DNA of 64,000 nucleotides from Synechococcus sp. PCC 7336 (GTDB lineage: Bacteria > Cyanobacteriota > Cyanobacteriia > Thermostichales > PCC-7336). The notes under the pieces were generated by a model. The model did not search any database. It saw only the letters and a list, made by a program, of their open reading frames with translations, and was not told where the DNA came from. The stretch is taken from assembly GCF_000332275.1 (NCBI RefSeq), contig NZ_CM001776.1:1597268-1661267 (forward strand), written 5' to 3'. Positions 36,657 through 41,051 of this stretch are shown one piece after another. How positions within the stretch are numbered: position 1 is the stretch's first letter; every line of letters starts with the position of its first letter. The position numbers and the translations under genes were made by a program.

Positions 36657-37010
36657 GTGGTGAGTAATCGGATTCGGTTACAGTTAGACGAACAGGTTAA
36701 ATCAGTGATTGCCCGTGAGTTACGCCATCGCGGCATTGATGTGACGACTACTGTTGAGGCAGGATTGCGAGCGAAGAGCGATGATGCACAAGTAGAATTT
36801 GCTTGTCAATCAAAGCGAGTGCTCTTTACTCAGAATGAGGATTTCCTGAAAATTGTCAGCCTGACTGGCAATCATTTTGGTATCGCTTATCGCAGGCAAG
36901 GAACTCGTTCGAGCAGCTCAAGCCCCCTTCTCTTCCAACAGCCGTTGCAGCCATTGCAATGCCCCCGGCACTTGTTCCAGTCCGGCCTTGAGCAGCAGCA
37001 GGATCGATAA
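36657..37010 (+). pseudogene. DUF5615-type PIN-like protein, C-terminus lost
   Basis: GTG 36657. Residues 1-80 match the DUF5615 PIN-like family (IRLQLDEQVKSVIARELRHRGIDVTTTVEAGL, RVLFTQNEDFLKI, NHFGIAYRRQG). The family normally continues with a helix (EIIRGLVLIWE-like); here the frame instead runs into the antisense of the exoD 3' end and yields a Ser/Gln-rich tail. A deletion probably fused it to exoD. Often part of toxin-antitoxin pairs; no antitoxin gene is seen upstream, where repeat B sits. Confidence 0.65.
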
Positions 37011-37860: not shown

Positions 37861-39117
37861 ATGAATTCAGAAGCACCCCTAACCTCGCTCGGACAAAGAA
37901 CCCTAGCTGCAATCGTGTTTACTGATGTCGTCGATTTTAGTGCGCGCGTCGGTCAGGCAGAAGAACATACCTTGAATTTGGTTCAGCGCGATCTCAACAT
38001 CATGTCTCAGCTCTGCAAGCAGCATGGCGGGCACGTACTCAAATTCACTGGCGATGGCTTGCTGATCTATTTTTCCAGTGCCTTCCGGGCAGTAACCTGC
38101 GCCCAAGAATTTCAGCATGCCATGGCCCGTGCAGCCAACAGCCTGCCGGAAAGTGATGCGTTGTGGCATCGCTGCGGCATTCACTTGGGGGATGTGTTTG
38201 TGAGCGAAACGGATGTCATGGGCGATGGGGTCAATATTGCAGCCCGCCTGCAGGGGGAGGCCCAACCCGGTGGCGTTTGCATGTCTCAAACGGTTTACGA
38301 TGTTGTCAAAAAACGACTCACCTTAAAAGCAACCTATTTAGGGCCGCGCGATCTGAAGAATATTCAAGAACCCGTTCACGTTTATCAAATATTAATGGCA
38401 GCGATGGAGGGGAGAACCTCAGTTGCCTCCATCAAAAACGTACCGTTAGAGCTTGCGCCGTCCGACGAATTATCTGAGGGGCTGGTTGCAACCCCTTCAC
38501 CGCTAACGCCTGCGCGCGAGGTCGAGGATATTGCTCCGAACGCACCCCAGTCCGCTCTACAGGAGAGCAGTCCCGCGATCGCCGCCAGCGTCCGGAAACC
38601 GCCTTTCTCAGTCTTGCCGAGCACTCAAATCCAATTGACCGAGCTGGTTATCGAGCATATGGGACCCATCGGCAAACTCACCGTCCATCAAGCCTTAGCC
38701 CAATCGAGCGATGGGAAAGAGCTGATTGCCGAGATCTCCCAGTGGATTCCAGCTAGCAGCGTCAAAGCTTTTCGCCAGCAAGCCGAACGCCTGTTGCATC
38801 GAGATGCCCTCGCCTCACCTCCAGAACCTCTGACCCCGCCGCCTCCTGTTGCAGACCCGCCAGCTAAAAACTCTGCAACCTCTACGGCTGTCACTGCTGC
38901 GATCGGCCAAGACGAAGCCTTTATGCACTACTGCCGCCAAGAATTGACTCAAGCCATTGGCCCGATCGCTTCACTGTTAGTCAGAAGGGTGCTGAATGAA
39001 ACCCCCAGCCTCTCGCGCCCGCAGCTCGTGGATGCCCTTGTGGAAGAGGTGACCGAGCCGCAAGCCGCGAAAGAACTGCGCGATCGCCTGCTCGCCTGGA
39101 GGCAGCCATCCGACTAG
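37861..39117 (+). CDS. Class III nucleotidyl cyclase with two C-terminal repeat domains
   Basis: 418 residues. The cyclase domain (1-180) has metal ligands Asp22 (FTDVVDFS) and Asp65 (FTGDG), Lys61 for adenine recognition, and transition-state Asn125 and Arg129 (GDGVNIAARL), so it should make cAMP. No sensor or membrane part. After a Pro/Ala-rich linker come two similar 60-residue domains (around 258-310 with MGPIGKLTVHQAL, and 350-410 with IGPIASLLVRRVL), of the DUF8082-like type seen at the end of bacterial kinases. Its stop overlaps the convergent haem-sensor gene by 4 bases. Confidence 0.9.
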   Translation: MNSEAPLTSLGQRTLAAIVFTDVVDFSARVGQAEEHTLNLVQRDLNIMSQLCKQHGGHVLKFTGDGLLIYFSSAFRAVTCAQEFQHAMARAANSLPESDALWHRCGIHLGDVFVSETDVMGDGVNIAARLQGEAQPGGVCMSQTVYDVVKKRLTLKATYLGPRDLKNIQEPVHVYQILMAAMEGRTSVASIKNVPLELAPSDELSEGLVATPSPLTPAREVEDIAPNAPQSALQESSPAIAASVRKPPFSVLPSTQIQLTELVIEHMGPIGKLTVHQALAQSSDGKELIAEISQWIPASSVKAFRQQAERLLHRDALASPPEPLTPPPPVADPPAKNSATSTAVTAAIGQDEAFMHYCRQELTQAIGPIASLLVRRVLNETPSLSRPQLVDALVEEVTEPQAAKELRDRLLAWRQPSD

Positions 39118-40016
39118 TCGTTTTGCCGGTCCAACATTTTCATGGCCACCACCAAACTAGCCCGCATGCGATTGAACGCTGCCGCCAAGATCCCCACCTC
39201 ATCTTTTGAGGTTTGGGCAAATTCAGAATCCATTTTCCCTTTACTAATTTCGTCGGCCACTCGAGCCATTTTCATCAAGGGGCGAATCACCACCTGCTGG
39301 AGAAAGATATTGGTCAGCAGAATCGAGACCGTAAAGGCGATCGCCACAATCCCCATCAAAATCAGCAAGGCTTGTCGAGCGTTGAGGAAAACGCCGCTGG
39401 CAGGCACCGAAATAATCTGAGCCCCAACCACTTCGTTCAATTGCCAGCCAAAGCCGTTCTCTCGACCGTAGGTAGCCAGTTGGCTGGCGGGAGCGTCTGA
39501 AGGAACTCCGTGGCATTCCAGGCAGCTCTCCTTCGAGATCGAAATGGGTCGGGCAATATAGAAAAGCTCGCCGGAAGGGGTCGAGCGGTAGCCCCGCAAT
39601 TCATCTAGCCCGCTGGCTTGCCGAAACCGCTCCACGATATCGGCCTCGAACCGATCGGCTTTATCGCGCAAGTTAGTGGGGTTGAGGGTGGCTTCTTTAT
39701 AAAAGAATTCACTATAGTCTGGATCGCTGCGCAAATCCTCAAACACTTCGCGGGCGGAGTAAGCGGGTACCGTTTGCGGGATGAATTCGGCCTCAGTCTG
39801 GAGGCGATCGGCCAGCTCGGGGCGCACCTGCTGGCTGGTGTAGTTCCGCACCGAAATCATCGTCCTGAGCAGAATAACTGCTTTGGAAGCAATCTGACCT
39901 TCAGCATTGCGATTGAGAATGGCAATAAAAGCGCCTCCGGTCACCAAGAAGCTGATGGTGAAAATAACGATTAATGTCAGACTAAATTTCTGACCAATTT
40001 TAAGATTGCGAAACAT
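39114..40016 (-). CDS. Tll0287-like haem-c sensor protein with HAMP domain
   Basis: 300 residues. A first membrane helix (11-33), a DUF3365/Tll0287-like PAS-type periplasmic domain with a c-type haem motif CLECH (Cys165, Cys168, His169), a second helix (about 210-235) and a HAMP domain ending at the C-terminus. Tll0287 is a haem-c protein proposed to sense redox or a ligand. No kinase, methyl-acceptor or cyclase output follows HAMP, so the signal must pass to a partner. The convergent neighbour is a soluble cyclase without a sensor. Confidence 0.88.
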   Translation of the reverse strand: MFRNLKIGQKFSLTLIVIFTISFLVTGGAFIAILNRNAEGQIASKAVILLRTMISVRNYTSQQVRPELADRLQTEAEFIPQTVPAYSAREVFEDLRSDPDYSEFFYKEATLNPTNLRDKADRFEADIVERFRQASGLDELRGYRSTPSGELFYIARPISISKESCLECHGVPSDAPASQLATYGRENGFGWQLNEVVGAQIISVPASGVFLNARQALLILMGIVAIAFTVSILLTNIFLQQVVIRPLMKMARVADEISKGKMDSEFAQTSKDEVGILAAAFNRMRASLVVAMKMLDRQND

Positions 40017-40127
40017 TGTTCGACCGCACTGCCTTGAAGAACTGAGATAAAATCTTACTACCGATTATGTTTCGGGCACTCTATGCTTAGGATGTTTACG
40101 ACTTTCCCGAGCTGAGATCGAGGTTCC

Positions 40128-41051
40128 ATGCGAGTTTGTCGAGTGGTTGTGCTGTTGATTGCGGCGCTGTTGGTGGGGTGTGCGGCCAGCGCCCCGGTGC
40201 CGGTCAATCGCTTGATCGTGGGTGTAGTGGCCTATGGAGAAGGGAGCCAGTCCCTCGATCGATACGAGTCTTTCCGCGACTATTTGGCTTTGCAAACCCA
40301 TTCGGTGGTGGAGCTGGAGCCTGCCTTTAACGAGGTCAAGGCCCTCGAAGAAATTCGCAGACGTCACTGGTCGCTGGTGTTTGCCCCGCCGGGATTAGCT
40401 GCGGTTGCGATCGCGCAAGCGCAATACAGTTCTCTCTTTCCCCTTCAAGGTCGGTCGAGTAATGTGGTGCGCTCGGTTTTGGTGGTGCGGGAAGATAGCC
40501 CCATTGAGGCGATCGCCGATCTCAAAGGTCAAGCGGTCGCTCTGGGACAACCGGGCTCGGCGACTGGCTACTATCTGCCCCTCTACGACATGTTTGGTCT
40601 GACCTTAGCCGAAGTTTCGCTCGAACCCACGCCGCGCCAGGTGTTGATGGCGATCCATACGGGAGAAGCGGCCGCCGGGGCGTTGGCTAAATCGGAGTTC
40701 GAGCGCTATCGGGGGGAATTTGATGGGGCACAGTTTCGGACGATCCACACCAGCCGCAGCCTGCCCGCCGGTGTGGTGGCGATCGGGCCTGCTGTCGAGC
40801 TCAACCTACAGGAGATTGTCCGTCAAGCAATGAACGATGCCCCCCCTCAAATCGCCTCGGAGGTCGGGTTTATTCCCAATGCCGATCCTCCCGATTACCG
40901 TTTCTTTATCGATCTGATTGCGAAAGTCGCCCCGCTGGAGGTCCGCCTCAACGAGGTTCCTGTCGCTCTCTACCCTCCGGCGATCGAAGTCGAGAGTCCT
41001 CCGGTAGAAACGGTTGAGCCAGAGCTGGAAGTGGTTGGCGATCGCCCCTAG
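40128..41051 (+). CDS. PhnD/SsuA-type substrate-binding lipoprotein
   Basis: 307 residues with a lipoprotein signal (LLIAALLVGCAAS, lipid on the Cys near residue 20). The mature part is a type II periplasmic-binding fold of the phosphate/phosphite/phosphonate PhnD family (LIVGVVAYGEGSQSLDRYESFRDYL, DLKGQAVALGQPGSATGYYLPL). No permease or ATPase lies nearby, so it may feed a sensor rather than a transporter. It is divergent from the haem-sensor gene. The last 35 residues are acidic and Pro-rich. Confidence 0.85.
   Translation: MRVCRVVVLLIAALLVGCAASAPVPVNRLIVGVVAYGEGSQSLDRYESFRDYLALQTHSVVELEPAFNEVKALEEIRRRHWSLVFAPPGLAAVAIAQAQYSSLFPLQGRSSNVVRSVLVVREDSPIEAIADLKGQAVALGQPGSATGYYLPLYDMFGLTLAEVSLEPTPRQVLMAIHTGEAAAGALAKSEFERYRGEFDGAQFRTIHTSRSLPAGVVAIGPAVELNLQEIVRQAMNDAPPQIASEVGFIPNADPPDYRFFIDLIAKVAPLEVRLNEVPVALYPPAIEVESPPVETVEPELEVVGDRP

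Follow-up and report, generated by a model that had tools for sequence, protein, structure and literature searches.

The closest described counterpart of the locus reported here is the Af1503/Af1502 pair of Archaeoglobus fulgidus. According to PMC4834066, Af1503-like receptors carry no effector and have nothing but HAMP on the cytosolic side; they are frequently coupled to a short STAC protein, an example being Af1502, which is translationally coupled to Af1503; within STAC, an LGPx(x)A motif joins helices 1 and 2. STAC is also present in the SLC5-STAC histidine kinases CbrA and CrbS, where it stands between membrane input and cytosolic kinase output, and in CbrA it docks on the membrane (SLC5) domain and is proposed to couple that domain to the kinase (PMC13022988). 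A further relative is the sCache_heme-HAMP protein of Pseudomonas azotoformans, with the layout transmembrane helix (TM)-sCache_heme-TM-HAMP, a CXXCH motif, no fused output and no axial Cys; in PMC12889525, a protein of this layout without axial Cys is reported to bind nitric oxide (NO) and to release it slowly, and a soluble sCache_heme member with an axial Cys to behave like a redox protein. HAMP-ended receptors such as Af1503 and the NO-binding sCache_heme-HAMP protein have so far been described without a recognised effector. Here we describe a three-gene locus in a stretch of 64,000 nucleotides from Synechococcus sp. PCC 7336 (contig NZ_CM001776.1, positions 1,597,268 to 1,661,267; referred to below as the window), which encodes a soluble nucleotide cyclase ending in STAC-like repeats, a haem-c receptor ending in HAMP and a PhnD-like lipoprotein, and in which the cyclase is likely to be such an effector.

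The three open reading frames (ORFs) of the locus (Table 1) had been interpreted in a sequence-only reading as a split signalling set, consisting of a soluble cyclase without a sensor that ends in two DUF8082-like repeats, a facing Tll0287-like haem-c and HAMP gene without output that overlaps the cyclase gene by 4 bases, and a divergent PhnD-like lipoprotein gene without a transporter. The ORF positions, the overlap (exact to the base) and the domain assignments held up, and so did the two repeats, their DUF8082 label excepted; the repeats appear to be STAC-like instead. As in A. fulgidus, a HAMP-only receptor is gene-coupled to STAC with a GPxxA motif; there, however, STAC is a lone small protein with transport genes near, whereas the window has two STAC-like repeats on an enzyme and a haem-c Cache sensor. 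The best sequence match of the window HAMP in the PDB is the HAMP of Af1503, and the window HAMP and the repeats point to both halves of the archaeal pair.

Table 1 Features of the cyclase-receptor-lipoprotein locus (positions within the window)
Feature	Position	Strand	Evidence
Soluble cyclase with C-terminal STAC-like repeats, 418 amino acids (aa)	37861..39117	+	ORF; PF00211 E 2.5e-13; best PDB relative 3mr7 E 6e-30
Class III cyclase catalytic domain (residues 17-177)	37909..38391	+	Pfam PF00211
STAC-like repeat 1 (residues 253-310)	38617..38790	+	Repeat profile; AlphaFold2 (AF2) model, predicted local distance difference test (pLDDT) > 90
STAC-like repeat 2 (residues 351-413), four helices, GP between helix 1 and 2	38911..39099	+	Repeat profile, AF2 model, 5a1q structural match
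Membrane haem-c receptor without output, TM-sCache_heme (DUF3365/Tll0287)-TM-HAMP, 300 aa	39114..40016	-	PF11845, PF00672, AF2 model
Haem c attachment motif CLECH (residues 165-169)	39510..39524	-	Cys positions
HAMP domain (residues 243-288)	39153..39290	-	PF00672
4-base overlap of cyclase and receptor gene ends (convergent, tail-to-tail)	39114..39117	.	ORF coordinates
111-bp intergenic region between divergent receptor and lipoprotein genes	40017..40127	.	ORF coordinates
PhnD-like periplasmic binding lipoprotein, 307 aa	40128..41051	+	PF12974 E 6.8e-28; lipobox LVGC

The receptor matches the Tll0287-like family PF11845 (E 6e-44; 150 bits against a cut-off of 24.1) and the HAMP family PF00672 (E 7.7e-10); no Pfam domain follows HAMP, which is the sole recognised cytosolic domain. 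Its TM helices were read from the sequence and the AF2 model (pLDDT 89), for which Foldseek retrieved the Tll0287 structure 5b82 (E 3.9e-7, TM-score 0.70 on the target), and it contains no Cys other than those of the CLECH motif. Profile match, CXXCH and Tll0287/Cache fold place the protein in sCache_heme, and the TM-HAMP context without an axial Cys places it in the signalling class of that family. Since there is no axial Cys, the haem site should be open; by analogy with the described protein of this layout, the ligand is probably NO or possibly a redox change. Relatives of the receptor were found by a receptor search in 37 of the 292 Cyanobacteriota genomes that, together with 398 Pseudomonadota genomes, made up our sample. 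Good matches are mostly ~300-320 aa long and end with HAMP, so the sensor without output appears to be a stable family and not a broken gene. Among 54 aligned relatives, CXXCH is kept in 53, and, judged by cysteine positions, the sensor segment of all 54 is free of Cys apart from the haem motif. One receptor clade (L068, L069, L070, L071 and L074) is ~350-400 aa long, with a charged helical tail after HAMP, and in L069 and L074 a gene that by eye encodes a MinD/ParA-like ATPase lies downstream of the receptor. The genome of Synechococcus sp. PCC 7336 has a second Tll0287-like gene (L002, ~4208494), for a secreted protein without HAMP, beside a multihaem cytochrome gene.

The repeats of the cyclase were characterized with a profile built from 19 repeats, which was also used for the genome searches. 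In the 5.07 Mb genome they are its only strong matches (E 1.8e-22 and 2.0e-17; next 0.0136); a weak match at 4855451 lies, by eye, in a nonribosomal peptide synthetase and was dismissed as chance. No Pfam family was found for the repeats, either with the whole cyclase (E up to 0.1) or with the 19 repeats (E up to 1), and DUF8082, the model of which may be absent from that copy of Pfam, matched neither; the name is not mentioned within the literature library searched. In an alignment of 54 repeats the G is invariant and the P is present in 90% or more, both window repeats reading GPI(A/G), and the repeats conform to the STAC motif (L/I)GPx(x)A between helix 1 and 2. The profile of these 54 rows has Af1502 (5a1q) as its best PDB match (E 0.0099 over 27 residues, aligned on IGPIAK), and a pairwise profile-profile comparison of the repeats with five CbrA-type STAC regions from Pseudomonadota gave a domain-wide match (P 8.7e-5, probability 60). 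In the AF2 model of both window repeats (pLDDT 85, predicted TM-score 0.47), repeat 2 forms a four-helix bundle like that of Af1502; repeat 1, in which helices 1 and 2 are modelled as one, makes a weaker case for the fold. VIA-align placed 5a1q first of 494 chains (Z 6.3, 64/69 residues, root-mean-square deviation 2.8; next row 5.4), and Foldseek gave no match under E 1 for the two-repeat model. Taken together, these comparisons of sequence and model are suggestive of STAC-like repeats resembling Af1502.

PF00211 is the sole Pfam match of the cyclase, in which this search found no sensor domain and neither an SLC5 nor a histidine kinase domain. Residues D22, K61, D65, D118, N125 and R129, which we take to be the metal, substrate and transition-state residues of class III cyclases, sit at the expected active-site positions, and with its catalytic domain match the protein can be assigned to the class III nucleotide cyclases. 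Since the catalytic residues are present, cyclic AMP (cAMP) is a plausible output. The cyclase domain is ~52-60% identical to the cyclase part of three proteins (L034, L043 and L044) that carry a kinase domain where the window cyclase has a proline-rich linker, and a kinase appears to have been lost or gained between conserved ends. Two further cyclases are encoded in the same genome, by eye a CHASE2-like membrane form and an FHA form, both without repeats according to the repeat profile; neither these nor the second PF11845 gene, which lacks HAMP and lies in a cytochrome cluster, were retained as alternative partners. An assignment to a defence system was likewise rejected, as PADLOC returned only generic cyclase, kinase and caspase matches: those of PycC to the window cyclase are weak (E 1.3e-9 at best) and confined to the cyclase domain, and the two neighbouring genes gave no match, such as one to the effector that usually accompanies PycC in Pycsar.

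The repeat, scored as present at E 1e-4, was found in 25 of the 292 cyanobacterial genomes, all of them among the 37 with a receptor relative (Fisher 2e-27, relatedness ignored) and none among the 255 without one. As the profile misses CbrA-type STAC, these counts hold for this STAC subfamily; at most 21 candidates per genome were taken into the initial scoring in cyanobacteria and 15 in Pseudomonadota. In 18 of the 25 genomes, and for 23 of HAMP-only receptors numbering 33 in the 25 genomes, the repeat lies within 1.5 kb of the receptor gene; the co-occurrence extends to the other 7 genomes, in which the two are unlinked. The count of 33 leaves out receptors with a fused output or longer tail (G024:C100, G060:C7, G170:C10, G289:C14, G289:C85 and, in G091, a receptor of 1605 aa together with three of 357-364 aa). 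Among Pseudomonadota the repeat occurs in 5 of 398 genomes, in each case beside a haem-HAMP gene and on a Ser/Thr kinase; a sixth proteobacterial pair (L040) came from a separate search of named genomes. Gene coupling to a HAMP-only receptor, a mark of the stand-alone STAC class, is thereby found here too. In the cyanobacterial cyclase and kinase versions, receptor and partner are arranged tail-to-tail; in Pseudomonadota and in the MscS channel versions the receptor gene comes first and its partner follows on the same strand. These two gene orders support a receptor/STAC pair.

The repeat keeps to genomes with output-less receptors and is missing from those in which every receptor is fused to an output. 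Receptors were classed by the length of their open frames, those of up to ~400 aa counting as output-less. Where a genome has an output-less receptor, it contains the repeat in 25 of 31 cases in cyanobacteria and 5 of 6 in Pseudomonadota; where all its receptors are fused, the figures are 0 of 6 and 0 of 18. One of the latter 18 (G648) has a 437-aa frame that is a sensor-TM-GGDEF fusion, which explains its high-scoring receptor relative without STAC; for the other long frames, assignment to the fused class rests on frame length.

The outputs attached to STAC are diverse. Apart from the window cyclase, 26 STAC proteins were searched with Pfam, which assigned 15 to Ser/Thr kinases alone (L033, L045, L046, L052, L039, L040, L138, L139, L161, L149_2, L144, L147, L148, L141 and L159), three to cyclase plus kinase (L043, L143 and L155), four to caspase-like peptidases (L057, L142, L145 and L146) and two to MscS plus a cyclic nucleotide monophosphate (cNMP)-binding domain (L073 and L072, the cNMP match of L072 being just under the cut-off); two had no Pfam family (L149_6 and L156). 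Similarity or inspection by eye gave the outputs of a further set (L034, L038, L044, L047-049, L053, L059, L061, L062, L064-066, L137, L140 and L150-154). On a tree of the receptors, in which 33 of the 54 rows bear an output label (the 21 without one include L067, with a STAC neighbour of just 97 aa), the six labels are accounted for by five changes, which is the fewest possible; the most frequent label is kinase, and the MscS and cyclase-kinase versions each form one clade. L036 and L037 were excluded from this tree, and L040, L138 and L140 entered it without their N-terminal extensions. From these domain assignments, the predicted STAC output is usually a Ser/Thr kinase, the cAMP version being one of several. 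In the MscS-type channels (L072:8647-10269, L073:5976-7634 and L152-L154), the STAC-like repeat stands just before the cNMP-binding domain and the gene follows that of the haem receptor on the same strand, possibly giving a signal-gated channel. A protein of 861 aa (L149:6254-8839) has three STAC-like repeats and no Pfam match at 1e-4, with a layout like that of the caspase L057.

The lipoprotein belongs to the Phosphonate-bd family at superfamily level only, its score with the PhnD equivalog model TIGR03431 being 55.5 bits against a cut-off of 261.1, so that it cannot be called PhnD. No ABC transporter gene was found among the nine proteins of the region that were scanned with Pfam, which do not include every ORF. 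Orthologues, all scoring at least 217 bits against 84 for the best remaining match, occur in 20 of the 292 cyanobacterial genomes, all of them among the 25 with the repeat. In 19 of these 20 the gene lies within 3.5 kb of a HAMP-only receptor, and in 18 within 409 bp; in the twentieth (G091, L141) it is beside a STAC kinase, far from the receptor. In G170 and CCP5 (L043 and L034) it lies beyond the cyclase-kinase gene instead. The lipoprotein joins the STAC/receptor pair as an addition seen in cyanobacteria only, and in 5 of the 25 repeat genomes STAC and receptor occur without it. In one receptor clade, a divergent gene for a Ser/Thr kinase with WD40 repeats (~629 aa; L046:9185-11074 and L060:8565-10451, with similar-sized genes in L047-L049 and L061) stands beside the receptor in the position that the lipoprotein gene has elsewhere. 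Neighbourhood conservation across cyanobacteria, which the sequence-only reading had set in advance as its test, is thus observed for lipoprotein and repeat alike, and it supports a split signalling set larger than had been claimed.

We consider it likely that the haem-Cache-HAMP protein and the STAC-tagged effector form a two-piece transmembrane receptor, the effector acting in trans. The outer Cache domain with its covalent haem c would bind the signal, most likely NO and possibly a redox change, and the PhnD-like lipoprotein from the divergent gene may report a second ligand to this domain. The signal would then pass through two TM helices to the HAMP dimer that ends the receptor protein; the STAC-like repeats of the cyclase would dock on HAMP or on the membrane-HAMP junction and, once docked, would switch the cyclase on or off, with cAMP as the putative output. 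In relatives the same STAC plug is carried by Ser/Thr kinases, cyclase-kinases, caspase-like peptidases and MscS-cNMP channels, and since it occurs on such varied effectors, the receptor seems to be kept while the output is swapped. As a conserved split receptor with interchangeable STAC outputs, this would be a new version of the archaeal HAMP-only/STAC arrangement.

Several observations weigh against this two-piece receptor. Helical bundles match easily, the Z-score of 6.3 to Af1502 is under the VIA-align caution line for helical models, and in Foldseek Af1502 is third in rank with a weak E of 1.5, albeit with the highest probability among the matches listed. In L139, a proteobacterial partner receptor, the haem motif reads CATCY and has lost the haem His, although the gene retains its STAC kinase neighbour. 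The flanks of the MscS versions and of the Pseudomonadota pairs showed no orthologous lipoprotein. Six cyanobacterial genomes with an output-less receptor have no repeat at E 1e-4 (G155, G172, G174, G189, G221 and G239); G172 has a weaker repeat in an MscS channel beside the receptor, and the receptor relative of G239 lacks HAMP. In 7 of the 25 repeat genomes the repeat lies apart from the receptor, at another site of the genome or on a different contig, and three receptors (L163, L164 and, in Pseudomonadota, the HAMP-only L211) are without a nearby STAC gene. The last two points would also be expected if receptor and effectors shared a pathway without touching, the receptor controlling an unseen protein and the STAC effectors being co-inherited for the same stress, with STAC serving only for dimerization or localization; contact between HAMP and STAC is itself deduced. 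We regard this explanation as rather unlikely, as the repeat is absent from all 255 receptor-less cyanobacterial genomes and from all 24 (6 + 18) fused-only genomes of both phyla, and as Af1503, likewise a HAMP-only receptor, has Af1502 coupled to it.

The STAC repeats might instead read the lipoprotein or an unseen transporter, much as the STAC of CbrA sits under its SLC5 transporter domain; the lipoprotein is indeed of a transporter-type binding class, and in G091 it accompanies a STAC kinase with the receptor far away. An extracytoplasmic lipoprotein, however, cannot touch a soluble enzyme, the five genomes with STAC and receptor manage without it, and the neighbours scanned with Pfam include no transporter gene, which leaves this arrangement very improbable. 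Still less credit can be given to the haem protein being a redox or electron-transfer protein in an incidental neighbourhood. Stand-alone soluble sCache_heme members are redox-protein-like in PMC12889525, and the second PF11845 protein of the genome lies among multihaem cytochromes; the window receptor, in contrast, has the TM helices, the HAMP and the lack of an axial Cys of the tight NO-binding class in that source, and its neighbourhood is kept across many genera and two phyla. Convergent genes with a 4-base overlap need no common function, yet the co-occurrence and linkage counts refute chance proximity, to which we assign a negligible probability.

Compared with CbrA and CrbS, which combine a transporter input and a histidine kinase output in one polypeptide, the system of the window would act in trans, from a haem-HAMP input to a cyclase or Ser/Thr kinase output. 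In the case of the P. azotoformans protein, the accessible part of PMC12889525 names no partner, operon or STAC, and a partner class is proposed here. Effector-associated domains (EADs) are likewise small, non-catalytic helical domains on varied effectors (caspase, cyclase) near a core gene, but each pairs with another copy of itself carried by the core protein (PMC7159879, PMC8195603). An EAD system was rejected for the window, the receptor proteins having no copy of the repeat and no Pfam EAD model matching it. In LuxP-LuxQ a soluble binding protein reports to a periplasmic Cache-type sensor, and by analogy only the lipoprotein would act on the receptor as LuxP on LuxQ; LuxQ, unlike the window receptor, is a histidine kinase without haem, and it appears in the Foldseek list of the receptor as a weak match (E 0.08). 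A PhnD-like domain is also used in sensing by TtrS, which matches the window lipoprotein weakly (E 0.006) and in which, unlike here, the domain is fused to a histidine kinase.

If the proposed pairing is true, STAC-tagged enzymes would be the missing output of HAMP-only receptors, a question that could be tested directly on two soluble pieces, and in cyanobacteria a link would exist from a haem sensor to Ser/Thr kinases, MscS-type channels, caspase-like peptidases and cAMP. STAC would gain a role outside transporter-linked kinases, and the loci would offer a natural parts kit for swapping receptor outputs; cells apparently connect one receptor to outputs that can be exchanged. More tentatively, HAMP-STAC may be a general plug-and-socket of bacteria and archaea, through which HAMP-ended membrane receptors would drive whatever cytosolic effector bears STAC; its haem-c (NO-type) form would then connect a single signal with a second messenger, phosphorylation, an ion channel or caspase-like cell death, the outputs being exchanged freely in evolution. 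Within the library searched, no paper mentions 'STAC domain' and 'cyanobacteria' jointly; the original STAC paper may mention Ser/Thr kinase or cyclase fusions.

Two minor observations concern neighbouring genes. In G155, a caspase-FGE-sulfatase gene without a STAC repeat (L162:4869-6917) overlaps the receptor gene by one base. In the window, positions 36657-37010 encode a DUF5615 protein (Pfam, E 4.7e-15), presumably of a PIN-like family.

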